A DNA stretch of 64,000 nt from Scatophagus argus (lineage: Eukaryota > Chordata > Actinopteri > Scatophagidae): the NCBI RefSeq assembly GCF_020382885.2, contig NC_058501.1, positions 17,108,001 to 17,172,000 of the forward strand. The letters run 5' to 3'. How positions within the stretch are numbered: position 1 is the stretch's first letter; each line of letters opens with the position of its first letter. The notes beneath the pieces were generated by a model. It was given only the letters and a program-made list of their open reading frames with translations, did no database searches and was not told where the DNA came from. Positions 26,097 through 56,310 of the stretch are shown in pieces. The translations under genes and the position numbers were made by a program.

Positions 26097-29000
26097 TCAC
26101 TTCTCCTGCATAGTCTTGTTGATCCAGTCCATGTAGTTAGCAACCCTGGTATAGACTCTATATGTTCCCTGCTGTCCGCAGCTAACCCCCCAGCTGACAA
26201 TCCCAGCAGCCCAGAACCGTCTGCCATCCTTGAGGGCGAGGGCACTTCCACTGTCACCATGACAGGAGTCTTTCCCACCTTCAGGCACTCCAGCGCAAAA
26301 CATGTTATTTGTCAGACTTGGTAAGTTGTTGTTTGTCTTCTTCAGCTTATTGACTGAATTACTGCATGTCTCCTGCTCCACCACAAGAAGGTGCACATAC
26401 TTCAGCTTATTTGTTAAAATCCATTGGTTGTCAGTTTCTCTAATTGTAAAGCCTGACACCAGTCTAAAGAAAAATGTAGAAAGAGACAATTAGATTGAAC
26501 TGGGCAGGAAGATTTAGTTCAGAAAAATAGCTTAGAATTATTTGTTTTTATGAATAGAAAACTTGGAAAGTTGTTTCTTTACCCTATCATGTCGGTGACA
26601 TACGTGGCATCCCCTGTTGGCAAACATATTGGCATAATGGATGCGTTGAATGTGACTGGGTCTTGCAGTTTGATCAAGGCAATGTCATTGTTGTAGTCTG
26701 AGCCAAGGTGGTTGTTGTATTCAGGGTGAATATGGACTGAGGCAGCATACACAGGAGAGCTCAGTAAGTTTTCAATAACAGTACCTCCTATGTAAATCTG
26801 CCAGTAAACAGTATGGGGAGAAGTAAATGTCAGTTCAAAAACACAGAGGCAACAGACTTGGATAAGTGTAGTTGTAGTCCACTTACCTGTATAGAGCTGT
26901 TTGATGTTGTATCTTCATTTACTAAGACATGAGCTGCAGTCATAATCCAGCGGTCTGCAATCACCATGCCTCCTGCTCCCTTCCCATCTATACTCAGGAA
27001 AACATGCCAGGGTATGGGATGATATGGTGGGATGGTATTTTCTGGACCATCGCTGTCTACAACGGTCCCCTGATAGGCAGATATGAGTTTTATGGGTTTG
27101 CCACAGACTGGATGAGACAAACAAAAAATTAGGTTCACACAAACACACACAGACAGAGACTTCATGTTTCAACTAAAGTGTCCTAGACTAGGCGTCACAG
27201 GTTTTACTTTGGTGAAAGGTATATACCAGGTATACAGGTTGGAGTGACATTGTGTTTAGACCGCCATTTTCCATCTGCTTCACAGGTGAAACTAACTAAA
27301 GACCAGAGAGAACAAAGTAATAAGATTTAGTTAATCTTTATGGAAAAATACATATTTTTATTCATTTTATGAATAATATAAATGAATGTCTCACCTGTTA
27401 CACCCTGAGGGAGAGAGTAAAATGGTTCGTTACAGTGATACTGAACAACAGAACGGTACTGATTCCTAGAGCCAGAAAGGAAAGTCAACCTTCCATTGAG
27501 CAGAGGTTCAGGTTCTCCACAATCAATTACTGGAGAAAAACAGAACAAGGACATATGAATATTTACTAGTGACTCAGAAGATATATTTGATTGTTGTTAT
27601 TTAAAATAATTTAGGCTCAAAATGAACATACTCTGGCATTTTAGCAGAGGGAGGTTCCACTGTCCGTCGCTTTGACACATGGCCGAGAACGTCTTGACCT
27701 CTTGACCATCCTGAAAACCCGAATAGTTTTATCAAGTTAAATGACTATTTGTCTGCTTGACACACTGAAACAAATAATGACAAGAGAAAGAAAACATCTA
27801 ACCTTCATCAGCTTGTATCCTTGCTTACAGGTCACATGTATGTAATCTCTGAAGAAATATTCATTTAAGACAGGAGTCACCCTGCCCTTAGTGACATTAC
27901 CTGGAAATGGACATTTAATCCCTGGAAAGGACAAATATTTGTCAAATTTACAATTAATCATATATCTACAGTTGAACAAGTGTTAGTGGTGACCAAATAA
28001 AATGCCACGTCTGTCTCTCTTCGTCACTTACTGTTTGTGCTGTAGTCCAGGCTCCAGCCGTGACTCAGGCCTTCATTATCAGTGTGGTAGTCCAGTCTGA
28101 CAGTATTGGAATTTGTAACTATTAGACCCGGACTCTTTTTGCCACACAGCTTCATGGGCTCTCTGCCTGGAATGGTCACCTATGTGGAGAGAAGACATAG
28201 AAAGGAATTTTTTATGCACTGAGGAATATCAGAGTCATTTTTATTTGGCATTTGTTGTAATGAAACCCTTTGTCATTACCTGCAGCCAGTGATTTAGACA
28301 CCTGGAACCTTGCTGAGTGTCCACACTCTCAATGTGGAAGTTGTCACTAAAGTTTAGAGTGACAGTGTGTCTGGGCTCCACGGAGATGATGTACTTGCAG
28401 GACAGAATCGGAGGTGAGGGGCCAGGGTACCCTGGACTGGACAGATGTCCTTCATGCTTGTCAAATATACAACCATCACAGGATACTGGACATGGGGCAA
28501 AAGCAAGTATTACTGTGACAAGAACAAGCTTCATAGATTAAATAACTCACCTCAGAATGAAGAGTCTTATTTACACTGATTTAGCAGCATTAATGTCGTG
28601 ATGTTACTACTGGCCTTCACAACATAATACACATCAAAGGTCCAGTGTGTAGGATTTAGTAATTTTTAGCAGTGCGGGTGCAACCATCATTATTGTCTCC
28701 CCCTGCTTTACGGTGGTGACTAGAAACTCGAAAGACCCTCACTCGATTTGCTCATTCTGGGCTATTGTAAATATAAATAAATAAATATGATTGTGCAACA
28801 TGTAAGACATGACTCCATGGAAGTGGACCTGCTCCCCATGTAGATCTAAAAGACTCACTTCACTAATGAAAACATAATTAATATATATAATAATCCATTT
28901 CTCCCCATAAATCCAACACTCTAGATGTTTAAAGTACATACAAAGAAGCATGCATTTAATGTTTATGGTACTCACACAAACACGTGTGCTGGTCTAAATG

Positions 29001-31182
29001 AAGATTGTAACCATAGTGGCAGGAGCAGTGGTAAGAACCAGGAGTGTTGACGCAGATCTGAGAGCAGAGTGGACCTGAGCCATCTCCAGGGTCTGGTTTT
29101 GAACACTCATCTATATCTAATAATGAGAGGGTCAAACTCGGAATTTCTCTTGAAGGCTGGGAGAAACATTACATGGGAGAGGCAACTGACTAAAGCTCTA
29201 CCTATTGCCTTGTAGGTAGCAGAGAAGCCAGTGTGCTGTTGAAGCTCTGCAGTGGAGTCACTTGTTTGGAATATGAGAGTCAGCTTGTTGCCTTGAGAAA
29301 GGATTGGCTGAGCAGTTGAATTTTCCTGACCACAAAACTTCCCCAAGACCTTTTGATCATAGAGAACCTGAAACAAGCGAAGAGCAGAAGAAGAAACTGT
29401 AAGAGCATAGATCATGATGATGGACTCCCTGACAACCATAGTTCTCTTTAACGTCAACATAAGTGAAACTGTATGAGTCAAAATTCTTAACTGCTATCAC
29501 AACAGCACAAGTGGAGAACAACCACAAAGTCAGCAAAGTGAACTCAGTAATGTGTATTACACAGCAATACATACTTGACAAGCATTACCTAACACTAGTC
29601 ACCATAATCTACTGGTATGATCAGACCAAGTGAAGGCGTTTACAGATAAGCTGTTGCGCTTAATTTGCACACCAGCCTTTTTTTTCACCTGTTTTTGTCA
29701 GAAATACTTTTGAAGAGAATGCAAATATTACACAATTAAAAAAGTCAATGTAATTTTTTTCAGAACAAGATCAAGACTTGGCAATGAAAGACATCACAAC
29801 TCCGGCCTGTTCACTGTTTGTGTCTCTCAGTAGCCCACTTATGTTGTTTACTTTGTGATGTAGAAAGGCCTCAGTGTCATAGCAGGGTTGATTAACATTA
29901 ATCTGTCTATACTGAGCAGCTTTGATAAATCAGAAACCTCACTAGGAGATCACTGAACCAGGAAAAAGTTGGTCCTGCCATCTGGAGGAATTACTGTTCA
30001 ACTGCATGATGTGGCTAAGCAGCCAAGTGAATTGAGATAGAGTAGATTGTTGGCTAATCAGAAGGTCATGGTTTGATTCCCCAGCTCGGCTGCATGGCAA
30101 AGTGTCAAGATGCTGAATACCCAATTGCCACTGATAGCTGTTCCCTAGTGTCTGTCTCTGAGTATAGAACTATCATGGGGTGCTTACGACAGGAAGTGCT
30201 GTATCATCTGTTGAAAAACGGGTTGGCACTTCACACATTCAGTATATGAATGTGTGCACGAATGGGGTGAGTATGACAAATGTTGTAAAGTCCTTTGAGG
30301 AGTCAGTAGGCTATAAAAGCGCTAGATAAATGCAAATCTATTAACCATTTATCATGTCGCATCCGACCTGGAAACTCTTGGTATCATCCAAGAGGAGCTG
30401 GCAAACATTGTGGGTGAGAGGGACTTTTGATTACCTTGCTTTCCATTATGTCACCACAACCCTTCACCAGATAAGTGGCAGAAAATAGATGAATGGATGG
30501 CTGAAAAAAGTGATGCCCATAGTACCATTTCATCTATATTCAAGTAAAAATTCTATAAATATTAAAGTTTGGGCTCAGAACCTGTGTGCACAAACACTGA
30601 AAGGTTGTTTGAAATATAGTACAATATGTTTCAGTGTGGTTCTAACCGTCAGAGAGTCCTCAATGCAGCCTGAAGAAGCTTTAATATCCAGGTGTGTTAG
30701 TGAAAGCTGAATCTGGTAGCCCTCAGGAACCCACAGGTCCCACTCCTTTTTCTGGTTGGGAGGGTAAGGTTGGGGATACTGAGGGGAATGAACCTCCCCA
30801 TCTGTTAAGGGTTGAGAGTGGGCCAGTTTCCAGCGCTCACTCGCTTGCAAACACAGAAACCTGGAAATATTGTGTATAGTTTTAACTAAGGTGATAGTCC
30901 ACAGTTGGAGTAAACAGAAACAGAAAAAAACGCACAATAATTTGTAACTTTTTAAACAACATAGTATTGCTTTACTCTTTCCTGCTTTACTCAAGAAATT
31001 TATCACTTGAAGTCAACCTTAAAAAACAGCATTCAGTCTTGTAGTTGCAGAATGTGTGTATAATGCAAGGTGGAAAGACAGAAGTTCAAGACGCAAGAAC
31101 ACTTCATGAAAATATGTAGCATGAAGGTAAAAATGAAATTTTTTTACTAAGCTTACCATATAATGGAATAGGTCCATCCCAT
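26097..31182 (-). CDS. C1r-like gene A: full domain set, activation bond lost
   Basis: Thirteen exons: 31157-31182 (signal MGWTYSII), 30647-30860 and 29202-29367 (CUB1), 28976-29116 (EGF), 28280-28485 and 28032-28179 (CUB2), 27803-27921 and 27632-27710 (CCP1), 27395-27529 and 27227-27295 (CCP2), 26887-27107, 26583-26797 and 26097-26463 (SP). They sum to 2106 nt, 701 aa (human C1r 705). The EGF keeps DIDEC and the Asn of [10 protein letters not shown] for calcium binding. In the SP domain His57 (TAAHVL), Asp102 (NNDIALIKL) and Ser195 (GDSGSA) are present. The activation region is [17 protein letters not shown] where copy D has [17 protein letters not shown], so Arg15 and Ile16 are both gone, and PYHP is inserted before PW. 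Gly226 is Arg (TYRVYT) and Gly197 is Ser. By these residues it cannot be activated normally, but it could still assemble through CUB1-EGF-CUB2. It is C1r-type by SP similarity (VSGF, NMFCAG). Confidence 0.9.
28635..28932. mobile_element. MITE in the EGF-CUB2 intron of C1r-A
   Basis: The left end CAAAGGTCCAGTGTGTAGGATTTAG and right end TAAATCCAACACTCTAGATGTTTAA are degenerate inverted copies of the TTAAAGGTCCAGTGTGTAGGATTTAG-type terminus of a common teleost MITE. A related fragment and a fuller copy lie at the equivalent intron of C1r-C. Confidence 0.7.
30027..30350 (+). repeat. tRNA-derived SINE in C1r-A intron 2
   Basis: A tRNA-like head with B box GGTTTGATTCCCC at about 30070 and a tail with GTAAAGTCCTTTGAGGAGTC and AAAAGCGCTAGATAAATGCAAATCTATTAACCATTTA, the standard 3' end of a fish SINE. 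It is diverged. Confidence 0.7.
30355..30498 (+). repeat. LINE 3' end (Rex3/RTE-like) in C1r-A intron 2
   Basis: ATCCAAGAGGAGCTGGCAAAC, GAGAGGGACTTTTGATTACC and AGATAAGTGGCAGAAAATAGATGAATGGATGG match the usual 3' end of a fish non-LTR element with a (GATG)n tail. No coding part remains. Confidence 0.65.
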
Positions 31183-32170
31183 GTCTACAATAATTTACCT
31201 CTGTGTGGCTTCAGTTTTTGGTGAAATGTCTCATGCACAAGTGGACCACTAGCGTCACACAGACTGATGTTTTTAGCACTTTGTAATGGAATTTAACCCC
31301 TGATGTTTGTTTATCTTGGCAAAAATAAGCGAAGGTATGAAACGTCAAAGAACAGGGTGAGTAACAGCTCAGTAAGTTTGAATAACCAAACTAGAGGAAT
31401 GAGGAGGAAAACATTGTACAGTAAAACGTTCCAGAGTACGAGGGCAGAGGGTCGGCGGAAACAAAGTTTACTATCTTTGTAAATTCACAAAGACAGATGA
31501 AGTAACTGAATTCAGAGTGTGTAGTAGACATATTGCAAGGTATTACAGTGATTAGTTAATATCAAGTTATCAGATTTACCAGATAATCTGTGACTTACCT
31601 AAATGCATGAAAGGGCACATGTTAGTCTGTATAATGTCCCTTTATTCAAATAATGCTTTTTGTGTTCCTTAAGGGACAGTTCACACGTGAATCAAAAATA
31701 TATCATTTTCCTCCTGTGGTTTTATTTATCCATCCAGATTGTTTTGGTGTGAGTTAATGACTATGTCACAACTGACAGGGAGACACTTGTGTTTACAGCT
31801 TGAAAATTAATGCTGCTTTCATTTATTTATAAACCATGAACTGTGTGACCATATGACCTCTGATGCAAGTTGTAGCCTATGAGTTGACTGTTGGGTTATT
31901 GAGGCCCACAGTGTAATGCTTTATTGGTCTCAGATTTACTTATGGTGGATTTTTTAAATGATTTATTTCTAATTGATATACAAAAATTGCTTCACAACAG
32001 AATTTTCGTCTGGCTGCTTAAGTGTATGATGAAGGTGTACCTCACCTCCATCATCGTAAGATGGACAAGGAAGGACTACATGAGGCATGTTGTTCTTTTG
32101 CATTAGGTTTTATTTGGCTTTGTTTATCTGTGGTTTTTGATCAGCTACTTAGCAGTGAAACACAGTAAAT
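31183..32170. other. Spacer between C1r-A and the orphan exon
   Basis: Contains the C1r-A promoter with the conserved box at 31305-31325 (see findings). Around 31668-31765 is a fragment like the common fish repeat TAAGGGACAGTTCAC...CCATCCAGATTGTTTTGGTGTGAG. No coding exon seen. Confidence 0.5.
31305..31325 (-). promoter_or_regulatory. Conserved C1r upstream box (copy A)
   Basis: On the minus strand it reads TTTTTGCCAAGATAAACAAA, with a forkhead core ATAAACA and an NF1-like half site TTGCCAAG. It is 123 bp before the ATG. Equivalent boxes occur before copies B (37005-37025), C (42819-42839) and D (49771-49786). FOXA plus NF1 sites suit a liver-expressed complement gene. Confidence 0.5.
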
Positions 32171-32367
32171 TCAATTATCTCGAATGATTTTCTTGATCCA
32201 GTCCAGGTAGTTGCCAACTCTGGTATAGACTTCATGTTCCCTGCTGCCCACAATCAACCCCCCAGCTGACAATCCCAGCAGCCCAGAACTGTCCATCATT
32301 GTTCAGGGCAAAGGGACTTCCAGTATCCCCTTGGCAGGAGTCTTTGCCACCATCAGGGAATCCAGCA
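32171..32367 (-). pseudogene. Orphan 3' fragment of a C1r last exon
   Basis: Reverse-strand reading gives [20 protein letters not shown], then [17 protein letters not shown], a frame break of 2 bp in the GTYxVYT region, and finally VGNYLDWIKKIIRDN with TGA at 32171-32173. It is the second half of the SP last exon, most like copies A and C. The catalytic Ser reads Thr (GAT ACT GGA) and Gly197 reads Ser. The fragment stops abruptly at about 32367, where sequence identical to the 3' flank of copy D begins. It looks like the old last exon of copy B, cut off by recombination. Confidence 0.85.
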
Positions 32368-32396
32368 CATCATGTTGTGATCAATTACAGTAAATT

Positions 32397-35300
32397 TCAG
32401 TTCTCCTGCATAGTCTTGTTGATCCAGTCCAGGTAGTTGCTGACTCTGGTATAGACTCCATATGTTCCCTGCTGTCCGCATTCAACTCCCCAGCTGACTA
32501 TCCCACCAGCAAAAAAGCGGCTGCCATCATTCAGGGCAAAGGGACCTCCGCTGTCACCTTGGCAGGAGTCTCTCCCTCCTTCAGGGAATCCAGCACAAAA
32601 CATGTTGTTTGACAGACCTGGTACTTGGTCCCTTGTTCTCCTTGCCAAAGCGATTGAATCAATGCATGTCTCCTGCTCCACCACAGGTAGCTGCACGTAC
32701 TTCAGCTTATTTGTTAAAATCCTTCAGTTGTCAGTTTCTGTGAGGCCAAAGCCTGACACCATTCTGAAAACAAATGCAGAAGAGACAGTTATGGTGAACT
32801 GATGAGAATGTCAAAGAACTGAGTTAATGAAACTAAAAACAAAGAATATAAATAAAATAATATCAAATAGATTATATATCCTTATAGAATGAAACCCATC
32901 AGTTGTTTCTTTACCCCATTATGCCAGTGGTGTATGTGGCATCCTCTGCTGGCAAGCATATTGGCATGATGGATGAGTTAAATGTGAGTGGGTCTTGCAG
33001 TTTGATCAAGGCAATGTCGTTGTTGAAATCCATGAAATTGGGATTGTTGTATTCAGGGTGAACATGAATTGAGGAAACATACACAGGAGTCCTCAACAGG
33101 GCATCAACCTTAGTGAGTCCCATGTAAACCTGTGAATCAACAACACAGGATGAAATAAATGTAAGTTCAAAAACGTGGAGGCAACGGGCACACTGGTAAC
33201 ACCTACAGTAGCCCACTTACCCGTATAGCTTCGTTTGGTACTTTATCATTTTCATTTACTAGGATCTGAGCTGCAGTCATAATCCAGCGGTCTGCAATCA
33301 CCATGCCTCCTGCTCTTTGTCCATGTATACTAAGGAGCACTTGCCAGGGGATGGTATTTTCTGGAGCTCCACTGCCTCCAATGATCCTTTGATAGGCAGG
33401 GATGAGTTTTGTGGGCTGTCCACAGACTGGATGAGACAGACAAAAATTAGGTCCAAACGGACACAGGTTACATGTTTAAACTAAAGTGTGCTAGATTAGG
33501 TATCATAGGGTTTAATACAACAGGTCAATACCAGGTATGCATGTTGGAGTGACATTGTGTTTGGACCTCCACATTCCATCTGCTTCACAGGTGAAACTAA
33601 CTAAAGACCAGAGAGAACAAGGAAATGAGATTTAATTAAACTTTATTAAAAAAAATGCACATTTTTATTAATTTTATGTTTAAGAATACTATGTGTAAAT
33701 ATCTCACCATTTGCACCTCCAGGAAGAGAGTAAAATGGTTCATTACAGTGATACTGAACAACAGAACGGTACTGATTCTTAGAGCCAGACAGGAAAGTCA
33801 ACCCTCCATTGAGCAGAGGTTCAGGTTCTCCACAATCAGTTACTTGAGAAAAACAAAATAAGGACATATTAATATTTTACTAGTGATTCTGAAGATTTGA
33901 TCGTAGCTATTTTTCTGTTTGAAATAATTTGGGCTCACAACAAACACACTCTGACATTCAGGCAGAGGGAGGTTCCACTGTCCATTGAAAAATCTGTTAT
34001 CAAACACCAAACCAAACACCACGTCTCTCTCTTTGTCCCTCACCATGTGTGCTGTAGTCCAGGCTCCAGCCGCGACTCACACCTTCATTATCTGTGTGGT
34101 AGTCCAGTCTGACAGTGTTGGAATTTGTAGCTATCAGACCTGGACTCTTTTTGCCACACAGCTTCATAGGCTCTCTGTCTGGGATGGTCACCTAGGTGGA
34201 AAGAGTAGTAGAAAGTATATTTTACACTTATGTGTACATATGAAACATATGAATGTGTACATATGAAAGTGTTTTATATGTTTTCAGGTTATCTGTCTGT
34301 CTGTACGTCTGTCCCATCCCATTGTGAATGCAGTATCTCAGAAATGCCTGACTGATGAGCTAATTAAAATTTTGTAGTCAAAGGTCACTATGACCCGACA
34401 AAACCTGTTTTTGTTGATAACCCAAGAATTCATGCGCTAAATATGAGTTCTTTGTTACATCATAATTTTCTGCAACAAAAGATCTTTTGTGCTGCGGAGA
34501 TGCGTGTGAAGCATCCATGTTTTAGAATTTGTAGCTTCCTCATGGCTAAGCATGTGAACACATAGTTTTGTTTTTTTTTCTCAATGAACTTGAGAATATA
34601 GTCCATCACAAGTCACTGATTTTGCTGATATTGAGCTTCAGATGATTGTTGTTGGACCATGTGATTAAGCTTAAGCAGTTCTCTGTAGTCCTCTGTGATT
34701 ATTCACTGAATCATACATGTTAAGTACCATAAAATACATTTAATATATTTTCTTAAATTCCTTCCATTTCTTCAATGCATATGGTTTACGACTCATTTTT
34801 TAAAATTTGTTACTGCTTTGTCATAATGAAACCCTTTGCCATTACCTGCAGCCAGTGATTTAGACACCTGGAACCTTGCTGAGTGTCCACACTCTCTATG
34901 TGGAAGTCTTCACTAAAGTTCAGAGTAATAGCGAATCTGTTCTCCACAGAGATGATGTGCTTGCAGGACAGAAAAGGAGGTGAGGGGCCAGGGTACCCTG
35001 GACTGGACAGATGTCCTTCAAGCTTGTCAAATATACAACCATCACAGGATACTGGATGTGGGGCAAAAGCAAGTATTTCACTTGTGACAGGAAGAGATTC
35101 AGTAATTCACCTCAAAATACAACTGACTTTTATAGCAGGATACGTATAAAAGTACATACAATGAAGAATGCTTTTACTGTTTGGTACTCACATAAACATG
35201 TGCGCTTGTCTAAATGAAGTTTGTAACCGCTGTGGCAGGAGCAGTGGTAAGAACCAGGAGTGTTGACGCATATCTGAGAGCAGAGTGGACCTGAGCCATC

Positions 35301-36881
35301 TCCAGGGTTTTCTTTTAAACACTCATCTCTGTCTGAAGAGGGAGTGTCATGAAAGAGAAACTCTAAGCTTAAATTTAATTTAGGTTTTAGAGATTGATAG
35401 AAAGTCATGTATAGAACTGCTCCATAGACATTTAATAATTAAATAAATCCTAGGACACAATGAACAGTCATAGTGAATCATTGCAGTATAAGTACATTCT
35501 GATTTGATTCTTTGAATGTTTTGACTTAAATCACTGGAAAGGCACCATGTGGTTTATGTTAGGCAGAATTTCTCTTGAAGGGTTTGGAGAATTGTGGTAA
35601 CACATTGTAATGAAAAGCAAAGTGACTTGAAAAGCTCTACCTATTGCCTTGTAGGTAGCAGAGAAGCCAGTGTGCTGTTGGAGCTCTGCAGTGGAGTCAC
35701 TTGTTTGGAATATGAGAGTCAGCCTGTTGCCTTGAGAAAGGATTGACTCTTTGCCTGGGTGAGCAGTTGAATTTTCCTGACCACAAAACTTCCCCAAGAC
35801 CTTTTGATCATAGAGAACCTGAAACGTGCAAAGACCAAAGAAGATGCAGAAGACCATAGATCATGACAAGGGGCTTGAAGTTCAACTAATGTGTTTTCAA
35901 ATAAGTTTTCATGATCTTTATCAATGACAGGTTTACACTATATCAACTCTGACCAGAGGTGCTCACAAATAATTTTTTCAAGTCCAAATCGAGTCTCTAG
36001 ACTAGACCCAGAACATGCTAGAGATGATATATGTCATCTGTCTTAGGAATACCCCACAATCCCCCGAGAGGAGCCTGAATTGTTTGCAGGGGTGAGAGAC
36101 ATTTGGATTGCCTTGCTTAGCCTGCAACCATCATAACCTGTCCCTTGATAAGAAGCAGGAAATAGACAGATACATGGATGGATGGAAAAAACTGTAGAGT
36201 CCCTGGTCCCAATTCAAGACCCCAATCCGTGCAAGTCATCAATACGCAAGTCAAAATTAAGTAGTAAATATCAAACTAAAAACTAAAACTGATTGAAATA
36301 CAAAAATACTGAACCAGTGGAATATTGTATAACATCAGGTTTCAATATGGCTCTGACCATCAGAGAGTCTTGATAACAGTCTGTGGAAGCTTTAATATCC
36401 AGATGTGTTATAGACAGCTGAATCTGGTAGCCCTCAGGAACCCAGAGGTCCCATTGCTTGAGCAAGTTAGGAAGATAAGGATGAGGATACTGAGGGGAAT
36501 GGACCTCCGCATGAATTACTGGTTGAGAGATGGCCAGCTTCCAGCACTCGCTCGCTTGTAAACACAGAAACCTGCAATTATTGTACATAAACACAGAGTT
36601 TTAACTAAGGGTATAGTCCAAAGTTAAAGCAAACAGAGACAGAATAAACACATAATTTTTAACTTTTGTAGCCACATAGTACTGCTTTTCTATTTGGTAC
36701 TACATGGGAGAAATTTATTACTTGAAGTCAACCATAAAAACAGGATTCAGTCCTGCCATGTGGTTGCACACTTAGAATGATAGTTCAAGAAACAAGAACA
36801 TTTCATGAGAATGTGCATCATGAAGGTGAAAATGAAAATTCTTGACTAAGCTTACCATATAATGGAGTAGGTAAATCCCAT
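32397..36881 (-). pseudogene. C1r-like gene B: lacks CCP1, His57Gln, early stop
   Basis: Exons: 36856-36881 (signal MGFTYSII), 36358-36571 and 35641-35818 (CUB1), 35192-35332 (EGF, DRDEC), 34846-35051 and 34044-34191 (CUB2), 33708-33842 and 33532-33600 (CCP2), 33221-33426, 32915-33129 and 32397-32763 (SP). CCP1 is deleted apart from a short stub, NGQWNLPLPECQ, near 33955-33990. Skipping the stub joins CUB2 to CCP2 in phase. The SP starts properly ([13 protein letters not shown]), but TAAHVL has become TAAQIL, so His57 is Gln. In the last exon CGA is TGA at 32724-32726, ending the protein after TETDN before Ser195. The predicted product is about 525 aa. As the stop is in the final exon, the mRNA may escape nonsense-mediated decay, so a secreted truncated protein is possible. 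Upstream exons are closest to copy A; the SP exons and their introns are almost identical to copy D. Confidence 0.85.
36000..36190 (+). repeat. LINE 3' end (Rex3/RTE-like) in C1r-B intron 2
   Basis: AATCCCCCGAGAGGAGCCTG, GAGAGACATTTGGATTGCC and TTGATAAGAAGCAGGAAATAGACAG, then ATGGATGGATGG. Same family and orientation as 30355-30498 in copy A. Confidence 0.65.
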
Positions 36882-43698: not shown

Positions 43699-46600
43699 TC
43701 AGTTCTCCTGCATAGTCTTGTTGATCCAGTCCAGGTAGTTGCTGACTCTGGTATAGACTCCATATGTTCCCTGCTGTCCGCAGTCAACTCCCCAGCTGAC
43801 TATCCCACCAGCAAAAAAGCGGCTGCCATCATTCAGGGCAAAGGGACCTCCGCTGTCACCTTGGCAGGAGTCTCTCCCTCCTTCAGGGAATCCAGCACAA
43901 AACATGTTGTTTGACAGACCTGGTACTTTGTCCCTTGTTCTCCTTGCCAAAGTGATTGAATCACTGCATGTCTCCTGCTCCACCACAGGCAGCTGCACGT
44001 ACTTCAGCTTATTTGTTAAAATCCTTCGGTTGTCAGTTTCTGTGAGGCCAAAGCCTGACACCATTCTGAAAACAAATGCAGAAGAGACAGTTATGGTGAA
44101 CTGATGAGAATGTCAAAGAACTGAGTTAATGAAACTAAAAACAAAGAATATAAATAAAATAATATCAAATAGATTATATATCCTTATAGAATGAAACCCA
44201 TCAGTTGTTTCTTTACCCCATTATGCCAGTGGTGTATGTGGCATCCTCTGCTGGCAAGCATATTGGCATGATGGATCCCTTAAAGGTGATTGCGTCTTGC
44301 AATTTGATCAAGGCAATGTCATTGTTGAAATCCATGAGGTTGGGATTGTTGTATTCAGGGTGAACATGAATTGAGGAAACATACACAGGAGACCTCAACA
44401 GGGTATCTACCTTAGTGAGTCCCGTGTAAACCTGTGAATCAACAACACAGGATGAAATAAATGTAAGTTCAAAAACGTGGAGGTAACGGGCACACTGGTA
44501 ACACCTACAATAGCCCACTTACCCGTACAGCTTCGTTTGGTACTTTATCATTTTCATTTACTAGGACATGAGCTGCAGTCATAATCCAGCGGTCTGCAAT
44601 CACCATGCCTCCTGCTCTTTGTCCATGTATACTAAGGAGCACTTGCCAGGGGATGGTATTCTCTGGAGCTTCACTGCCTCCAATGATCCTTTGATAGGCA
44701 GGGATGAGTTTTGTGGGCTGTCCACAGACTGGATGAGACATTCATGTACTAATGAAGTTTTTCACAGATTTCATTTCAAACTAAACAAAAGATACCAGAC
44801 GAAGACCTGGTGTAGATCAGCAAAAGCAATACCTGGTAAACATGTTGGATGGACAACAATATCATGGTTGGATCTCCACTTTCTGTCTGCCTCACAGGCG
44901 AAGGTAACTGAAGAGCAGAGACCAGAAAAATAGTTTTATGATTATGTTAAGTGATGTTGATGTGTACTCCAGTGTGTGTCTGCACACTGTCACAATCAAT
45001 GTTCAATATCAATGGGGTTACAGGTGCAACAGAGCACATGTCTGAGCCCACATGCTTCAAAGGCAGTTGTGTTTTTCAGCTTGGAGTTAAGGTAGGGGGC
45101 AACTTTCCATATTCTAGCCTATTTCCTCTAAAATATGTATACATTACTGTGCTGTGAAAATGTATATCTGTAAATGCTTTCTTAAAAATACATTTCGGAT
45201 TAAATAATAGTATTTCTAGACTTCAATTAAAGTAAGTGTATAAGACTTATTGTGAACTGCACAGTGTTGGTAAAAGGCAATGGACAGACCAACATTCACT
45301 CAGTGATGATGTGACACTGATGAAAATGAATGCGGTTCACCATGATGGATTTTACAACTCAACACAAAATTGTCCATGAATGAGTCCAATGGCTGGTAGG
45401 AAAAATCTAAAATAAAGTACATCCTTGAACACAGTAAATAACTCACCATTTTCGCCACCAAAGAGAGAGTAAAATGGTTCGTTGCAGTGATACTGAACAA
45501 GAGAACGGTACTGATTCTGAGAGCCAGAAAGGAAGGTCACGCCTCCATTCAGCAGAGGTTTAGGTTCTCCACAATCAATTACTGCAGGTGAACAAAACAA
45601 GCACATATTAATATTTTGTCTGTGATATAGGTAATGATCAAGAAGACTTCAAATCAACAAAGTTTCCATTAGTTTTGCAAGTTTCTGAGCTTAAGGGTAA
45701 CATACTGTGGCATTCTGGCAGAGGGAGGTGCCACTGTCCATTGCTTTGGCACATGGTAGAGAAGCTCTTTATCTCTTGTCCATCCTGAAGGAGAGCAGAT
45801 GGGAACTAATAAGTTATCAGCCCACTTTATTATATCATACATAATGACAAACAAGTGCCCTCTGTTGATGTTAAGTATTTGACAGGGCAAGTTTCATCTA
45901 ACCATCATTAGCTTGTATCCTGGGTCACAGCGCACGTAGATGTAGTCTCTGTAGAGATATTTGGTCAAAGTAGGAGTGACCCTGCCGTTCGCTACACTAC
46001 CGGAAAATGGACACATCACTCCTGAAAATAGCATAGTCAAGAAAGCATGTACCATTAGCCACATACCTATAGATATCCAACTGTATGTTGCAATCAGTAT
46101 TATGGGAACAGTATTTTATTGAGAGCTAGTATGTTGTGACAATGACACTCACACATTTCTAGTCTCATTCCTCTCTCTCTCTCTCTCTCACTCACTGTGT
46201 GTGGTGTAGTCCAGGCTCCAGCCATTGCTCAGGCCAATATGATCAGTGTGGTAGTCCAGTGTGATAGTGTTGGAGTTTGTGACTATCAGTCCTGGACTCT
46301 TTCGACCACACAGCTTCGTGGGCTCTTTGCCTGGAATGGTTACCTTTTAAGAGAGGAGTACACAGCTCGTTGTTTATCGATCCATTTATTTCCATGTATG
46401 CATTTAAATATGTACAGAGAGCATATGGAAGCTGCTTGTCATCACCTGCAACCAGTGATAGACACAGTCTGGGCCTTCCTCAGTGTCCACGCTCTCAATG
46501 TGGAAGTTGTCAGTGAAGTTAAGATTGACCACAAAGCCAGGATCAACAGAAATGACATACTGACAGGACACAGCGCGAGGTGGGGTGTCAGGGTATCCTG

Positions 46601-49600
46601 GACTGAACAGATGTCCCTCTGGTTCATCAAATATGCCACCAGGGCAGGACACTGTGCAGTTGGAAAAAGAAATCTTTCAGGTTCAAACCTAAATATGTTA
46701 ATATATTTGTTTATATTCATATAGTATTCAGTATTCATCATGTCAACTTCCTCAGCACAAAATTCTGGTTAGAGCTTAGTACTAGTATAATACTAGTAAC
46801 TTGTATTGCATCTTTCTTTCTTTCTTTCTTCTGTTGATCAATGTATTTCTGAACGAGTTAGGATGACACCTTTCCTAGTGTTAGGATTTTGGTATTGTTG
46901 ACTTTGCTAAATCTAACACTCGTGAAGATGTTAAGTGTTGATTATTTCGAGCAGACTCGGATGCATTGCTCAGTTTTGTTGAGATCTCCCCCAAAAAGCA
47001 AAATCTTTTCTACTTGTACAATATTTATCATAAAATGACAGATACTTGTAAGTGTCTCTGACTGAAATTGATGACGGGATGAGTGAAAGTTTTCACAGTT
47101 TGACTGACCGTCGTTCTCCCCTTCAACACATTTTGGTTCTGATAGGTGCATACATGGGAAGCATGCATGCGCACAATACTCACACACGCAGGTGCGCTGG
47201 TCTGAGCGAAGCTGGTAGCCATGGTGACAGGCACAGAGGTATGAGCCAAGGATGTTGAGGCAGATATGACTGCAGAGTGGACCTGAGCCATCTGCAGGTT
47301 CCGGTGCAGAACACTCATCTATGTCTGATAATGAGAGAGACGTTTAATTAGTGGGAGGTTTGTTCAGAAGTGGAGGACTGAAGAGCCAGAAAAGTTCACC
47401 GATGGTGGATAAGTGGTACCTATTGCTTGGTACTGAGCAGAGAAGCCCACATTCTGGTGCCGCTCTGGGTTGTTTTCATCTGTCTGGAAAATCAGGGAGA
47501 GTCTGCTGCCTGGAGACAATATGGGCTGAGTCCCGGGGTGATGCCCAACCTCAGAATTCTCATAGCCACAAAACTTTCCTAGCACTTTGTCATCGTAGAG
47601 AACCTGAGGGATCATATAAAGGATAAAATCCAAATTATGATTAGGAAAATTTGCAAACTTGTATCCATTCTGTTATACAGATGTATTTGGAAAGTTATTT
47701 ATTGTACAAATGCTGATGTAAGGATTTAATACACCATGTGATGCTAATCAGCAACAGAATCTGTGGTAGTATTTTAATTGAGTCACCAAAATTACCCTAC
47801 AAATCTTTACTTCCCCTCAGCAACATTGAGGTTTAAAATATCTTTAAGTTGTTGTTTTGGCTTAATGGTCCACAACTTCAATGTTTTTGTTTTCTCATCA
47901 ACATTGTTAGAGCAGCCGGCCATTGTTGTTTAAAGAAATAGATATTTCCATCAGGAGTTGGTGGAGACCAAAACAGAGTAAAAAGTAAAGAGAATATTAT
48001 GCTAACTTTTATCTAGTTGTTATATGCACAATTTTAATTGAATATCATTTCTATGTGTAAATAAGCAACTGTTTGCTAACACATCTCTATAACTTGATAA
48101 AAGGTTGTGTTTACGACTTGCTGCAGGTTTAAATCCTTCTCTGAAGAGGTATTTGAAATTGACCAATCTAGTGCAGTTTATTTCTGAGGTGTTTTCAAAA
48201 CATTGTAAGTAGCTGATTTGTTCATCTCTGACCTGGATACCCGTAATCCTAACCCTGTTGTGAAAACTAAAACTGTTGTAATGTAAAATGTTTTGTTACA
48301 TTCCTACTTAAAGGAATATTACAGGTAGCAAAGCTGACTTGTTGTTACTTTGATCATGAAAGTGAGACTGCTAGAATAGAGTGTAGGCTGCAATATAGTA
48401 TAGAACTGAGTATTTATAGTATTTCTAGTACATATACCTTAGAGAATACTACAGATCCAAGACAAACTGACAGAAAGGCAGGACTGTGAGAAAAAGGCAC
48501 AGTTACAAACCCATCTGCTACATCAGTACCATTAAGAGCACCATGGATTTATCAATACACAACACAGTTATGTTACTGATATTAGAGCCATGGATCGAGG
48601 CCATAGATCCAAATTTGCAAAAACTTCAGTCAAACAACCCCTGTGCCCCGGCACTCTCTCTGCACCTGAGGCATAGAGTGGGAGCGAGACCAGGTTAAAA
48701 AGGGACATGGATTTTTTGCATTTCAGGGATAGCATCTCCCCTCATCCCCCCACAAATCACCTATTGGCAATATCAGATCATATCGTATGTATCAGACTGA
48801 AAACGCCAAACACCAAAGTACATATTGATTATAACAGAGAAGCATGGAAAGGTACGTAGGTAATTAGTAGAAAAAGTGTTTTAGGTGAAGTTCAAGTCAT
48901 TAGTGTTCAAGCCTGAGTCAGGTTTTCTACACTGGCACTCAATTCACACTTTAGTTTAGAACTCAAACCCTACAACACTGGTCTGTTTTTTTGTGATATC
49001 ATATGTGTTGAAATGTGGCTCTGACTGTAAGGGCGTCGTAATGGCAGCCTTCAGAAGCTTCAATGTCCAGGTGCGTGAAGGTGAGTTGAATCTGGTAGCC
49101 CTCGGGAACACTGATGTCCCACTGCCTCTGCAGGTTGGGAGGGTAAGGCTGAGGGTACTGGGGGGACTGGATCTCCCCGAGCATTACAGGCTCTGAGTCA
49201 GGCAGCTGGATGCACTCCCTCACTGACACATACAGAAACCTGGAAAGATGCATGAGCAGAGAGAGTTCGATCTGTTTGTCAGTTTGTGGTCATGTGAGCT
49301 ACTGGTCCAAAGTTGACGCAAACATAGAAAGAGCAAACATAGTGACACAATCAAGCACAACCGTTGCAACCATATAAAACTGTCATGGCTTTATATATAC
49401 GGCATACTGAGATGGATCAACGGGTCACCCTATAAAATCCCGCAATATGTCATACTGAATGTAGAGAAACAACCAAATGGTGTAACAATCAGCTCCACAG
49501 TTATAGCAGGTTTGTGCAGTGAATATTGTAACAAACCTAGAAACTCGCTTTAAAAAATATTTGCATACAACTTGTAGTAAATGTAGTTTGATCTTACCAG

Positions 49601-49623
49601 ATGATACATGAGAGCCTCCCCAT
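43699..49623 (-). CDS. c1r: Complement C1r, canonical copy (D)
   Basis: Thirteen exons: 49598-49623 (signal MGRLSCII), 49026-49239 and 47420-47603 (CUB1), 47184-47324 (EGF), 46446-46651 and 46196-46343 (CUB2), 45903-46021 and 45706-45784 (CCP1), 45447-45581 and 44833-44907 (CCP2), 44523-44728, 44217-44431 and 43699-44065 (SP). They sum to 2115 nt, 704 aa; human C1r is 705. Calcium-type EGF: DIDEC and [12 protein letters not shown]: activation [13 protein letters not shown], His57 TAAHVL, Asp102 [17 protein letters not shown] and MFCAGF typical of C1r, Asp189 and Ser195 in [12 protein letters not shown], Gly226 in TYGVYTRV. This is the only one of the four copies with all parts and all key residues. 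It should autoactivate in C1q-C1r2-C1s2 and cleave C1s, whose gene is next upstream. The SP domain is split by two introns, unlike the neighbouring c1s. Confidence 0.93.
46169..46194. repeat. (CT)n microsatellite next to a C1r-D splice donor
   Basis: CTCTCTCTCT run of about 26 bp, a few bases from the 3' splice donor of the second CUB2 exon. Confidence 0.85.
47604..49025. other. C1r-D intron 2, no recognised element
   Basis: A 1.4-kb intron between the CUB1 half exons. An open stretch around 48486-48720 has no motif I can assign. Nothing else recognised. Confidence 0.35.
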
Positions 49624-51164: not shown

Positions 51165-54100
51165 CTAAGAGTTTTCATTTGCTTCTATTGTCTCCTTAAT
51201 CCAGTCTACATAATTCTCCACCTTGGTATAATAACCCTTGTACTGCCTCTGAACACAGGGGGGTCCCCAGGACACAATGCCGGTCAGATAATAAGGCTCT
51301 CTGCCTGCAGCCAACATTGGAGAAACAAACGGACCTCCACTGTCTTGCCGACAGCTGTCCATCCCTTCTGCTCCAGCACAAAACATGTTCTGGGTGAAAA
51401 TCATATTTTTCTTTCTTGGAGTGGAAGGTGTCTTCTGACACGTTGCAAGGGGGTAGACACCAATATGAGCATATTTTAACGTTTGAGATGTGACAAAAGG
51501 CCTATTTCCTGTACCTGTCCCTGTATCTGTCCTCCCAAAGCCTGCCACTGTGCCTTGCTCACCTTCCATCAAGCCTCTGTTTGGCGCTGGCAGACAAATG
51601 GGAAAGAGATTTGGTCCTAAATTCACCCTGGAAGCTAATTTGATGAGAGCAATATCATTGTCAAAATTGTCGCGGTCTGCAGTGCCCTGGATGTAGCCAG
51701 GATGAATTATAATCTTCTCACTGTTCATGACAACCTCACTAGAAAACCTATCTGTTGGTTTTTCATCTACCAATCCACCATACAGCTGCATAGAGGTTTC
51801 ATCTACATTTTCCACAACATGAGCTGCTGTGACAGCCCATCGATCATTGATCAGTGATGCTCCTCCTCTTTTTGGGGATTTGATCAAAAGTTGCCAAGGT
51901 ATTTCTCCCAGGTTTGCGTCCTTACCACCCAAAATTCTGCCTGCACTTGAAGGGTGTTTTTTAGGCCTCCCACACACTGAAATACAGAAAGTCGTTAATG
52001 GAGTCACGTGAAAAAGGAAACATAAAATTTAAAAGGAACCAATAAATTTACCTTCAGTGCATTTCGGCATTTCCATCTTGCCTCTACTTGATTCCCATTT
52101 ACCATTGGAATTACAAATGTATGTGTCTGAAAGATTGAAAAAAAGTATATAAATAAAAGTACAAAACTTTGCATTGTCAGTTAGTTTAGAAAAGGCACAT
52201 AGACATTGACAATCACCATCTCCTTCCAGTGTGTAGTACTCTGAACTGCAGTTAAACTGGATCATGTCCTTATACTTAGTGTGGTGTGCATCTGAGCTCA
52301 AAACCTTAAGGATGCCGTCTTCTGGGATATCAGGATCACCGCAATCCACCGCTATGCACGTGAGGGAAAAAGGAAAGAAATTAAAGAAGCACGTTTTTTT
52401 TTTTTTTTTTTTCAAAATTTCCAAATTGGTCACATTCAGACTCACGTTCACAGGCGTAAGAGGGACTCCATGTTCCTGTACTCTGGCATGTCGTTACATA
52501 TTGTGTTGACAGGATCTGATTGGCTTCCTACTTTGCAAAAGTAAAATCTTATGAGCTTAATAGTGGCTTAAATATGTCAAAGGTATGAAAGTTCCTCTGT
52601 ATACTCACAGCATTTGCAACATAGCCAACATGACAAGTGACTGTGACTGTTTGACCCCGAAAATATTCTGAGGTTTGCTGAGGAGTCACTGTGGAGTGTG
52701 GGGTTACAGCTGCTGGACACACCTTGTCTGCAGTTCACATACAAGAAGAACAGTTCTGATCATTTGTGATTGCTTTGCAGCAAATATTGTTTTCCCATTG
52801 TGTCACAGGTGAGGAGGATTCATTACCTCTGGTTTTGAAGTGCAAAGTGAAGCCTTTATTAGTGCCAAAGCTGTCAGAGGTGAAGCGGACGAGGACATGA
52901 TGTGAGTGGGTGAGGAGAGGAGATGGGGGAGGCGTGTTGCCACAGAAGGGCCCCAGAATCCCATAGGAAGTCTCAATCTGCAAACAACACAAAACAGTCA
53001 TGTTACCAAATGTATGTGTCCTCCATCATTTACAATGACTATAAAGATTAATCACCCCAAATATAAAACACATATTTGCATGAGTATTCAAAACAATTTC
53101 AAAGGACACTAAATCAACATAATTCATAATTAATTCATAATTAGTCAAATGGTGGTGACTTTTAGACTGGATTTTAAAGACAAACAACTTCTGGTGAGTC
53201 AGTGTTGTGGCTAACATCTCTTGGAGTACAATCAGTCTTTGAAGCGCAGGCTTTTGGGACTGAGGGAGGAAGCTGGAGTACCCAGAGAAAACCCACACCA
53301 CAAAGAGAACATGCAAACTCCACACAGAAGGACCAGAACCAAATCCATAACCCTCTTGCTTTGAGGCTAACCACACAACACTGTGCTGTCCAAAGCACAG
53401 GTCTAAATCTGAAATTAAAAGCAACTGACTGTCCAAGAGGGAGATTAGTAAGGGAAGCTTCCAAGAATGTTTAGATAGATACATAGATACTTTATTGATC
53501 AAGAGGGAACATCAGTAAGTTGAAGCTAAATGTGCACAGGAGTTGCTTAAAAGACCAGAAGAGGGAAAAACTGCAATGTCCGGTTGTGCCTATAGAGCCT
53601 GTAAATGTTACCAAAGGAGCATCTTCTGAACACTGGCCTGGAGGAGCTCTGTAATACATTTGAATGTAAATTTATATCACTTTGTAAAGATCTCTATCCT
53701 TAGCTCAGCATTAACAACAGAACATTAAATATAATTTGATTTATGGTTTTAGGGCAATGAAACATGAAATCTTTCATGAGGTGAAAGATTTTTTTCTAAG
53801 CATTGTAGACAAGGAAATAAAAAATCCAAAATGAGTAATAAAGGGGGACTGTAAAATGGACATAACAGGATGCGTAATACTTGTCAAATCCAGCGTTTCG
53901 ACATTTTCATCTGAACTTCCTCTGCAACATTTTCTATGTTTTAAAAAGCCACACCTCTATGGCGTATTTGCACAGACACTTACTCTCAGTGCATCTATGC
54001 ATTGACCGTCAGGGCTTTGCTCCACATCAAAATCTTCAGAGAAGTGCAGCTCCAGCTGCAGGTGGGCCTCCACAGACAAGGTGTGCTGACAGTTGGCATT

Positions 54101-56310
54101 GTCTGCATATGGAGCAGGCCAGGAGGGACTGGATATGTCACCTCTTTTCTGGCCTGACAGATTCTCAGAACAGCTCACTGTGTTGAAGATAAGAGTTCAT
54201 TCATTCACCAATCTTTTAACCAGCATAATCATAAGAACTATACAATCATCTAACTCCCCCCGTTCCCTTCATTTTCCCTCCCACTCTTTTACTTGCTTCT
54301 GCTTCCTCTATCTTCCCCAGTCTCACTTCATTTTTCAGTTTTGTTTCTTCTTCCTTGATTTGTCTCACTCTGTGCATTGTTGATGATAAAGAGATTATTT
54401 GTACCGGTGCAAGTGTGGTTGTCTGTGTCCAGGTGGTAACTGTGGCGACAGGAGCAGTAGTAACCTCCAATGAAGTTGTGACAAAACTGCGTGCATTTGT
54501 TGTCAGGGTCGTCCTTACATTCGTCAAAGTCTGAGGGAGGAAATTAAAATGTCAGTAGAAAAGCATGCTGCACAATAAGCTATAAAGAAACTGTTGGGAA
54601 ATATGCTGTTTGCTCCAATGACCGCTTCTGGTTATCAGGAAATATTCAGTTAGAACATCCTGACCTGAAAGTGAACCCAGACAGGCTTCTTTTTGTGTCA
54701 CTCTCAGGTCTTAAAGTTAGTGTTTTCATTAGAAGGTCCAGTGTTGAGGTGAACATAAAATGGACTGTATTTACAAAGCGCTTTTCTAGTCATACTGACC
54801 ACTTAAAGCACTTTTACACAACTGTCGTACTCATCCATTCACACGCTAATGGAACTGATGTTATCCATCAGAAAGCATTGACCAACCACTCGCACGCATG
54901 ATAGCACTGATAGCACAGCATTGGGAGCAATTTGGGTTTCAGTGTCCAGTTCAGGGACATTTCAACATGCAGACTGGAGGAACTTAACTCTAGACGTCTT
55001 GCAGATTTTGCCTGCCAGCATCTCTAAAGCTCACTAATTAACTTGTTATATTTCTGTCTCATTAGAGTCAGGCTAGCTGTTTACTTCTTTTGGCTAACCA
55101 TCCCGACTGCAGCTTCATGTTTACCTGACAGATTTCTGGATTTCTTCTTCCTCTGAATTTAAACATGTCAACTTATTATCCAAAACAGAAATTTTGGTTT
55201 TCTTTGTGTTTTGTCACTTTATTTTCAAATAATGCATCTGAGAGATACCCACAGTGTTGCATTCACTGTGTCTGAGCACTAGCTAGAATATGGGCCAGAA
55301 GGTAATCGGTGAGAAGTGACATATTTGGATTTGTTTTTTCATTTACCTTGAGCTTATCTTTTCATGCTTCTCAGTGTAGAGACAAGGATTAAAGTCAAGG
55401 CAGCTTGCTGCATCAGTTCTTCCTTCTCTAGACTTTATAAATAGTTGTGTTTTAAGTGATTGTTTTTGTGAATTTCATTTTCTACAGCCGAGATTGTGAG
55501 ATTGTTTGACAGGATGTAGAGAGATATTAGTCACTACAGACCTGTCAGCACTATTGAAATGAAACTTAAACTCTCAGCCTTAAACACCCTTTAGAAGCAC
55601 ATAATTAAGTTATGGACACTAGTTATTTCTGCTTTTGTTCATTTATGACATGATAAACCAGCTTTAAAAACCATTGTGAATTGATGTTTAAAAATATCAC
55701 CTTCCTAACAATATGATAACAAAAGCATTCACAATGGGTTCTCTTGGGGAATCTGAAAGAATGAAACAATTGGTTGGACTCGTGCAACTCGATAACTTAT
55801 TTGCTTTTCCCCGTCGATGTCTCACCTTGATCGGTGTAAAAGCCTCTGAAGCCGGTGTGCCTCCTGGTGTTTGAGTAGTCCGAGTGGAACGATAGAGAGA
55901 GGCATCCACCCGGCGAGGAGAGGAGCAAGGGATTTACAGTGGACTGAAGCTCCTCAAATTCCCTCTTGCCACACAGAATGGAAATTAGGTTTCCATTCGA
56001 AAAGATCTGGAAAGCATCAGGAAATTATGTTGTAGAGGATGCAATAACCGTACCAACTCGAGTTAGTAACTTTGACTTCTTAAGCATTTAAAGTTTATCT
56101 TGACCTCTGACCTTCACGGCGTCGTTCTCACAGTCTTGGCTGTCCTCAAGGTCCAGGTGGATGAGCCTGATGGAGATGGTGTGACCTTTGGGGGCACACC
56201 TGCTCCAGTTTAGGCTGGCATGGGGCGAGTATCCACGGGGATACCCTGGAGACTCCACCCATCCCAGCAGTGTGGAGGAGGCCGAGTGGGAGAGCAAGAG
56301 AAGCAGGAGA
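51165..56310 (-). CDS. c1s: Complement C1s, first (signal) exon not found
   Basis: Ten exons found: 56112-56310 (end of signal LLLLLSHSASS, then CUB1), 55826-56006 (CUB1), 54405-54530 (EGF: DFDEC, CHNFIGGYYC), 53984-54177 and 52827-52977 (CUB2), 52609-52727 and 52446-52527 (CCP1), 52217-52351 and 52052-52126 (CCP2), 51165-51976 (whole SP in one exon). They encode about 690 aa; human C1s is 688. The first exon should be a few codons with ATG upstream of 56310. The SP has GRILGG (activation), GGASLINDRWAVTAAHVV (His57), DNDIALIKL (Asp102), IFTQNMFCAGAEGMDSC (Asp189), DSGGPF (Ser195) and GIVSWGPPC, close to human C1s. Position 193 is Gln (CRQDSGG) instead of the near-universal Gly. C1s, once cleaved by C1r, cuts C4 and C2. 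It is the last minus-strand gene of the cluster and lies divergent from the TNFRSF gene. Confidence 0.9.
53235..53410 (-). repeat. DANA/Mermaid-like SINE, reverse, in c1s CUB2 intron
   Basis: GGGAGGAAGCTGGAGTACCCAGAGAAAACCCACAC and AACATGCAAACTCCACACAGAAGGACC are the reverse complement of the SINE body seen at 9400-9785. Confidence 0.8.
53472..53520 (-). repeat. LINE-type 3' tail, reverse
   Basis: TAGATAGATACATAGATACTTTATTGATCAAGAGGGAACATC, the reverse complement counterpart of the tail at 12640-12692. Confidence 0.6.
54755..55020 (-). repeat. SINE-like repeat, reverse, in the c1s CUB1-EGF intron
   Basis: AAAATGGACTGTATTTACAAAGCGCTTTTC, ACCACTTAAAGCACTTTTACACAACTGTC, CATTCACACGCTAATGG and GACATTTCAACATGCAGACTGGAGG fit a common teleost SINE in reverse. 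It shares its 3' end type with 30027-30350. The tRNA-like head is eroded. Confidence 0.65.

Follow-up and report, generated by a model that had tools for sequence, protein, structure and literature searches.

C1r-type genes of the fish Scatophagus argus: one complete C1r beside three copies that appear to lack the C1q-docking surface

C1r of the classical complement pathway is usually read as an enzyme with a single job, bound to C1q, and four of its residues (Glu49, Tyr56, Asp102 and Tyr235) are reported as essential for C1q binding in the excerpts of PMC4222235 used here. The lectin pathway has related proteins without enzymatic action: MAp44, MAp19 and teleost MAp34, products of MASP1/MASP2, are described in excerpts of PMC7435015 as splice products that lack the protease part (SP) and bind MBL or ficolins. 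Fish C1r-type genes with odd domain content have been surveyed, and the excerpted part of that survey (PMC11312191) gives as its teleost C1rL example O. mykiss, reported with partial domains, and cites C1r papers on Sebastes and tilapia. No protease-altered C1r paralogs in fish were among the matches listed for literature on fish or altered C1r.

The window analyzed here, 64,000 nucleotides of the S. argus genome, carries on its minus strand a tandem array of four C1r-type genes (A to D) and one adjoining C1s. Likeness to C1r of the classical pathway lies in the signal-CUB1-EGF-CUB2-CCP1-CCP2-SP architecture of D and A, in the best match of SP and in the neighboring C1s, whereas A, B and C have lost most C1q-docking residues and have altered catalytic or specificity residues, B and C are without CCP1, and SP is split by two introns. 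Our preferred reading, to which we give a probability of roughly 0.6, takes D as this fish's working C1r, next to its C1s, and A, B and C as an old clade derived from C1r that has departed from the C1 complex.

Gene inventory and the complete copy

Copy A occupies positions 26097..31182 (minus strand, as do all features below; 13 exons, 701 amino acids), copy B 32397..36881 (11 exons, CCP1 largely deleted), copy C 37699..42705 (11 exons, 638 amino acids, no CCP1) and copy D 43699..49623 (a complete C1r gene of 13 exons and 704 amino acids). The four models have AG/GT borders and consistent phases and share two CUB1 exons, one EGF exon, two CUB2, two CCP2 and three SP exons; each also has a 26-nt signal exon with an ATG and a GT donor. 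This block was taken as the signal exon because another block with an ATG, about 100 nt upstream of the D CUB1a exon, yields no ATG-to-GT-donor exon in A–C. A preliminary description of the locus had placed signal, CUB1, EGF and CUB2 in all four copies, and the splice-consistent models bear this out. The C1s gene (51165..56310) consists of CUB1a (56310–56112), CUB1b (56006–55826), EGF (54530–54405), CUB2a (54177–53984), CUB2b (from 52977), CCP1 and CCP2, which were read by eye, and a single-exon SP within 52028–51165; its model has no located start-codon exon. Searched against its own 571 Mb genome, the SP1 exon of D gave 37 matches and the CUB1a exon of C gave 15, the best five in each case being copies A–D and C1s, and these two exon searches found no further C1r-type gene. 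Scans of the window returned no Rfam match and no tandem repeats relevant to the genes.

The exons of D are signal (49623–49598), CUB1a (49239–49026), CUB1b (47603–47420), EGF (47324–47184), CUB2a (46651–46446), CUB2b (46343–46196), CCP1a (46021–45903), CCP1b (45784–45706), CCP2a (45581–45447), CCP2b (44907–44833), SP1 (44728–44523), SP2 (44431–44217) and SP3 (44065–43699). The Arg-Ile activation bond, His57/Asp102/Ser195 and Asp189/Gly216/Gly226 are all present in D. In domain content, the predicted D carries the classical full set, unlike O. mykiss C1rL as described in the excerpts of PMC11312191. The statement that only D holds CCP1, activation bond, full triad and Gly226 is right when read as a set. 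CCP1 taken singly is not private to D: A retains both of its exons (27921–27803 and 27710–27632), B retains only part of CCP1b (33943..33987, with no CCP1a match), and in C a degraded CCP1a trace (39787..39865, with no CCP1b match) is all that remains. The Pfam domain check covered A, C and D. In the PDB, the SP of D, C and A, each searched, best matches human C1r; the three SP exons of B share 97.6, 93.5 and 98.4% identity with those of D. A MASP-1-type origin, considered on account of the intron-split SP, was rejected, as the SP matches C1r best and the Ser195 codon is AGC or AGT.

Protease parts of copies A, B and C

Judged from their sequences, A, B and C appear to have lost the normal protease in different ways. 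In A, the activation bond is gone (R15G, I16T), a six-residue insert is present, and further changes are G197S, P198A and G226R. In C, His57, Asp102, Ser195, Asp189 and the Arg-Ile bond are all intact and, of the protease residues checked, only position 226 is altered (G226R); the earlier proposal of a dead protease is not supported for this copy. Both A and C have full open reading frames. The three copies had been described as impaired by different changes, but their lesions are not all independent, as Arg226 is common to A and C and Ser197 to A and a remnant of an older exon of B.

In copy B, His57 is replaced (H57Q) and a premature TGA within SP3 stops the frame before Ser195. The SP block of B derives from D: the tract (32366..33426, left edge approximate) spans SP1–SP3 with the two introns between them and runs on for 31 nt beyond the stop. 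At the tract, B–D identity jumps from 0.62 to 0.98 between neighboring 60-column windows, and the lowest such value within it is 0.87 (from 33023); the SP introns of B and D differ by 0.8%, and in SP, placing B with D improves the tree by about 99 lnL units. A remnant of the older SP3 exon of B lies downstream at 32156..32378, with S195T, G197S and a 2-nt deletion beside codon 226. Both the stop codon and the recent D origin of this block had been overlooked in the preliminary description. Copy B is likely to be either a pseudogene of recent origin or the source of a truncated product and, because of the stop in its last exon, is not likely to act as a full-length regulator.

Selection, docking residues and competing explanations

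Maximum-likelihood codon models were fitted after exclusion of codon columns with a stop in any copy, including the premature stop of B. For CUB1-EGF-CUB2, the pooled A, B and C tips gave an omega of 0.51 (p = 0.002, one topology) and the D branch, which includes the A/B/C stem, 0.27; omega of A/B/C is relaxed relative to this D-plus-stem branch (p = 0.018). The expectation of non-neutral dN/dS in this part is thus upheld by the pooled tips and less so by single copies (p = 0.17 or 0.014 for A, 0.035 or 0.037 for B and 0.11 or 0.37 for C, by topology), and, taken domain by domain, the A, B and C tips never show an omega below 1 at p < 0.05. Pooled omega of SP is near neutral (0.75, p = 0.15). 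None of the seven exon gaps between A and C breaks the frame, whereas frame-breaking lengths make up 12 of the 14 intron gaps (Fisher 3e-4). This count took in introns of 40 to 900 nt that differ by at most 400 nt in length and at most 40% in sequence; the CUB2b–CCP2a interval, the CCP1 exons and end gaps lie outside it. A stop simulation covering CUB1-EGF-CUB2, CCP2 and SP (signal and CCP1 lie outside) gave 4.3 stops expected under neutrality in A and 5.5 in C, where none is observed (P 0.012 and 0.004), and 2.3 in B, where one is present.

Such data bear on the reading in which A, B and C are all duplicates in ordinary decay that no longer serve any function, which we consider unlikely. The H57Q and stop of B, its broken older exon, the separate loss of CCP1 in B and in C, an SP omega indistinguishable from 1 and the relaxed N-terminal omega fit this reading. 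Pseudogenes would show frame-breaking lesions and an omega of about 1; B has its stop, A and C show no frame-breaking lesion, and SP has such an omega. Neutral decay of A and C is disfavored because none of the seven exon gaps breaks the frame, stops are absent and the pooled omega is 0.51. Even so, A or C may have lost its function recently, given the relaxed omega and the mostly non-significant single-copy and single-domain tests.

Equivalents of Glu49, Tyr56, Asp102 and Tyr235 are all kept in D, whereas A, B and C have Lys in each copy at position 49, Glu, Gln and Gln at 56, Ser in each at 102, and Asn, Asn and His at 235. With Asp273 added to the docking set and His228 left out of the scoring, D has five of five residues and A, B and C keep only Asp273. 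The equivalent of human Asp226 is Glu in A, B and D and Gln in C. Because D has Glu and His at the positions matching human Asp226 and Asp236, and the fish C1s has Asn at the Tyr52 position, human residue rules may not carry over fully to this fish. Although CUB1, EGF and CUB2, earlier named as the parts that bind C1s and C1q, are present, A, B and C have lost most C1q-binding residues and appear to have lost the docking surface; if the human residue roles apply, binding would be lost as well. The EGF residues Asp, Glu, Asn and Gly are kept in A–D, and B has Arg at the Ile position; we take these positions to be the EGF calcium site in these copies.

An earlier proposal, citing MAp44 and MAp19 as precedent, would make A and C protease-dead decoys that compete with D inside C1, for C1q as well as for C1s; in the lectin pathway, MAp44 and MAp34 act in this way. 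Open signal, CUB1, EGF and CUB2 in all copies, the constraint seen in the pooled test, the retained calcium residues and the precedent of OnMAp34, which competes with OnMASP-1 for OnMBL (excerpts of PMC7435015), speak for this proposal, and A and C are indeed not plainly decaying. Competition for C1q, however, is disfavored by the replacement in A, B and C of the four docking residues kept in D. Moreover, CCP1, the dimer-forming module of C1r (excerpts of PMC4222235), is missing in B and C, the catalytic triad is kept in C, and the whole SP frame of A and C would be needless for a pure decoy. The copies resemble MAp44, MAp19 and MAp34 in belonging to the CUB-EGF-CUB superfamily and in their predicted want of normal protease action, but A and C are genes in their own right, whose SP frame is full and whose collagen-docking residues are degraded, and they would not match a type marked by absence of SP and a shared collagen-stem partner. 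We find the decoy proposal very improbable as a whole, though A and C may bind or compete for C1s, because their EGF calcium residues are kept.

It is likewise highly doubtful that C is a respecified protease without C1q docking. Its intact triad, Arg-Ile bond and Asp189-Gly216-Arg226 pocket are consistent with such a role, as is its SP omega of 0.59 (p = 0.08 against 1), and in granzyme B Arg226 serves to accept Asp at P1 (excerpts of PMC6096847). Copy C shares Arg226, Gly216 and an intact triad with granzyme B but has Asp189, belongs to another family and is only putatively active; Asp189 could pair with Arg226 and close the pocket, CCP1 is absent, no substrate is known, and the SP omega is not significantly below 1. 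A wider version strikes us as a long shot: the clade would have abolished C1q docking and rebuilt its S1 pocket with Arg226, C becoming a protease of new, possibly acidic-P1 specificity whose activator would be a trypsin-like enzyme (C1r itself, perhaps), and A a locked zymogen-like partner.

Proposed history of the C1r-type copies

In the preferred reading, that of a clade departed from C1 beside a working D, copies A, B and C would be older paralogs relative to D, with CUB1 dS of about 1.1–1.3 between them and D and about 0.24–0.26 among themselves. The clade would first have lost the acidic and Tyr residues that dock C1r on C1q, a change visible in the sequences with a presumed effect on binding. 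As the shared codons suggest, G226R would have removed trypsin-type S1 specificity no later than the A/C split, followed by loss of the activation bond in A and of CCP1 in C. Copy B would have lost CCP1 and then its protease, been overwritten by the D-derived block and been broken again. The age and the order of these losses rest on four sequences of one species, with gene conversion among them.

Most likely, A and C still yield modular proteins that are secreted and lie outside C1. As both keep the EGF calcium residues, their likeliest residual activity would be to pair with C1s, C1r or one another in a calcium-dependent way. The apparent loss of the C1q-docking surface and of the normal protease makes A, B and C probably not simple blockers of C1. 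At the residue level, this reading predicts no C1q binding, possible C1s pairing and altered P1. If it is true, C1r-type frames have stayed open in a fish lineage without the C1q-docking residues or normal protease specificity, which would show that C1r can leave C1 and be reused.

The C1r array and its neighbours

In the window, the minus-strand gene order is C1s (51165–56310) followed by four tandem C1r-type genes, D (43699–49623), C (37699–42705), B (32397–36881) and A (26097–31182). Exon borders were set by alignment of the four copies and then checked as spliced frames. D (704 aa) and A (701 aa) each carry a signal, CUB1, EGF, CUB2, CCP1, CCP2 and a serine protease domain (SP). CCP1 is missing from C (638 aa) and from B (634 codons ahead of the final stop, including a TGA inside SP3); as CCP1 starts and ends in phase 1, the CUB2–CCP2 junction is in frame in both. 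A Pfam scan of A, C and D returned CUB, EGF, Sushi and Trypsin domains as expected. The SP of A, B, C and D (44728–43699 in D) contains two introns at identical places, and the SP of the adjoining C1s is a single exon, closest to human C1s. The human C1r SP is likewise one exon. The C1s frame is open across CUB1-EGF-CUB2a, and its CCP1 and CCP2 were identified by eye; the start-codon exon was not located in the C1s model. The C1s SP (52028–51165, minus strand) has Gln at the Gly193 position (DSCRQDSGGP versus DSCKGDSGGA in human C1s), adjoining the catalytic Ser, which is an unusual oxyanion-hole change.

Searches of the fish's own genome (570.7 Mb, 48 contigs) gave at least 37 matches for the SP1 exon of D and at least 15 for the CUB1a exon of C, the best five in each case being A–D and C1s. 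Among the matches listed, the remaining 32 and 10 have E-values of 7e-8 or weaker and 5.6e-7 or weaker, respectively. Plus-strand neighbours are an MRPL51 exon (12626–12925), a segment with no Pfam match that we take to be a VAMP-like N-terminus (15634–15927) and a TNF-receptor-type exon (58258–58707; a weak Pfam match and 13 TNF-receptor-type chains), an arrangement presumably consistent with conserved synteny to the human 12p13 region of C1R and C1S. Two groups of Ig-domain gene exons lie on the minus strand (3374–4537 and 20445–23258). The second, which includes 21.4–21.8 kb, presumably resembles a tapasin-related gene; of three frames run against Pfam, one gave Ig-type matches.

Protease domains and the history of B

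With chymotrypsin numbering assigned by alignment to human C1r, D retains the R15–I16 bond, H57, D102, S195, D189, G216 and G226. A retains the triad and displays G15–T16 in place of R–I, a six-residue insert, S197, A198 and R226, while B has Q57 and a stop ahead of S195. In C, the activation bond and triad are retained, and among these residues only G226 is altered, to Arg. In trypsin-like enzymes, Gly216 and Gly226 open access to Asp189, and in granzyme B Arg226 serves to accept Asp at P1, as described in PMC6096847. Given these roles, cleavage after Arg is probably lost in C, a claim that stops short of a dead protease.

The SP of B has a history of its own. In codon-model quartets, the grouping of B with D in SP beats the alternatives by about 99 log-likelihood units; A+B is favoured in CCP2 (about 10 units) and CUB2 (about 4), B+C in EGF (about 5), and no topology is preferred in CUB1. 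B–D identity climbs to 0.98 near the start of SP1, the match stops 31 nt beyond the stop codon, and divergence between the copies in their two SP introns is 0.8% (242 aligned sites). Within this D-derived tract (33426–32366, minus strand), a patch of SP2 (33023–32963) matches A and C, not D, which suggests patchy conversion or changes in D. Part of an older last exon (SP3) of B persists downstream (32378–32156, minus strand) and carries S195T, G197S and a 2-nt deletion. B and D differ in 24 SP codons. With A and C used to polarise them, seven are assigned to B (six amino-acid changes, including H57Q, and one silent) and eight to D (five amino-acid, three silent); the other nine, including B's stop (an Arg codon in D), have no polarity. 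The dN/dS ratio (omega) of the B tip in SP is 4.5, not significant (p=0.20). With H57Q and a stop in the D-derived block and a broken older last exon beside it, the protease of B appears to have been lost twice.

Reading frames and selection

Frame-breaking gaps are absent from exons in A–C (0 of 7), A–B (0 of 3) and B–C (0 of 4), and in the pairs with D (B–D 0 of 2, A–D 0 of 4, C–D 0 of 5). In introns, the share of gaps with a length that is not a multiple of three is 12/14 for A–C, 11/15 for A–B, 10/21 for B–C, 4/4 for A–D, 1/1 for C–D and 0/0 for B–D. Fisher tests of exon versus intron gaps give p=3e-4 for A–C, 0.04 for A–B and 0.12 for B–C, these pairs having sequences in common and thus not being independent. 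Neutral simulation with fitted branch lengths over three regions (CUB1-EGF-CUB2, CCP2 and SP) predicts 4.3 stops for A and 5.5 for C, and neither copy has any (P=0.012 and 0.004); B carries one stop against a prediction of 2.3 (probability of none, 0.10). The absence of frame-breaking gaps and of stops argues that the frames of A and C were held open for most of their history, which concerns past rather than present use.

CUB1 dS (NG86) is 0.24, 0.24 and 0.26 for the three pairs within the A/B/C group, compared with 1.14–1.32 against D. As the quartets are unrooted, the D branch includes the A/B/C stem. Over the 286 codons of CUB1-EGF-CUB2, the overall omega is 0.35 and that of the D branch 0.27; pooling the tips of A, B and C gives 0.51 (p=0.0019 versus 1, best topology only), and pooling just A with C gives 0.56 (p=0.039). 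Single tips give 0.45 for A (p=0.17), 0.46 for B (p=0.035) and 0.60 for C (p=0.11) on the best topology, and p=0.014, 0.037 and 0.37 on the second (2.3 lnL worse); in per-domain tests no A, B or C tip reached p<0.05. Since the D branch differs from the remaining branches (p=0.018), A, B and C look relaxed relative to it in this region. Omega is 0.29 overall in CCP2 and 0.68 in SP, where A, B and C pooled give 0.75 (p=0.15) and A and C 0.68 (p=0.063).

C1q docking and the role of the clade

Human C1r residues described as essential for C1q binding are E49, Y56 and D102 in CUB1 and D226, H228, Y235 and D273 in CUB2 (PMC4222235). D has E49, Y56, D102, E226, Y235 and D273; H228, which adjoins an insert, was left out of the scoring. 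A, B and C, in this order, have K/K/K at position 49, E/Q/Q at 56, S/S/S at 102, E/E/Q at 226 and N/N/H at 235, and all keep D273. The HMMER alignment of A with human C1r again gives the E-to-K change and aligns no Asp at position 102. All four copies retain D, E, N and G in the EGF domain. By eye, the fish C1s sequence retains the Glu45, Asp53 and Asp98 positions and has Asn for Tyr52.

The K49 and S102 codons are common to A, B and C, and R226 of the protease to A and C. This suggests that the ancestor of the clade was already without normal C1q docking, and that trypsin specificity had already gone in that ancestor, or at least in that of A and C. Alternatively, gene conversion among the copies could have spread these changes. 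The loss of CCP1 in B and C came later and took different forms. Because CCP1 forms the C1r–C1r contact with the partner SP (PMC4222235), C1r-type dimers would not be expected for B or C.

The preliminary description had proposed A, B and C as protease-dead competitors that tune C1. Its precedent is real in the teleost lectin pathway, where the non-enzymatic OnMAp34 (CUB1-EGF-CUB2) competes with OnMASP-1 for OnMBL (PMC7435015), but the array lacks the defining features of that class, and competition for C1q is disfavoured by the replaced docking residues and, in B and C, the missing CCP1. Among the papers listed, none describes C1r paralogs of this kind from fish, a weak negative as fish C1r is only partly covered. 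The predicted D, with its classical full set, is a counter-example to the partial domains that a survey describes for teleost C1r-like genes (PMC11312191). Judging from the shared docking and R226 changes and the loss of CCP1, we favour over a C1q competitor a retained clade that would act outside C1, with B probably dying.
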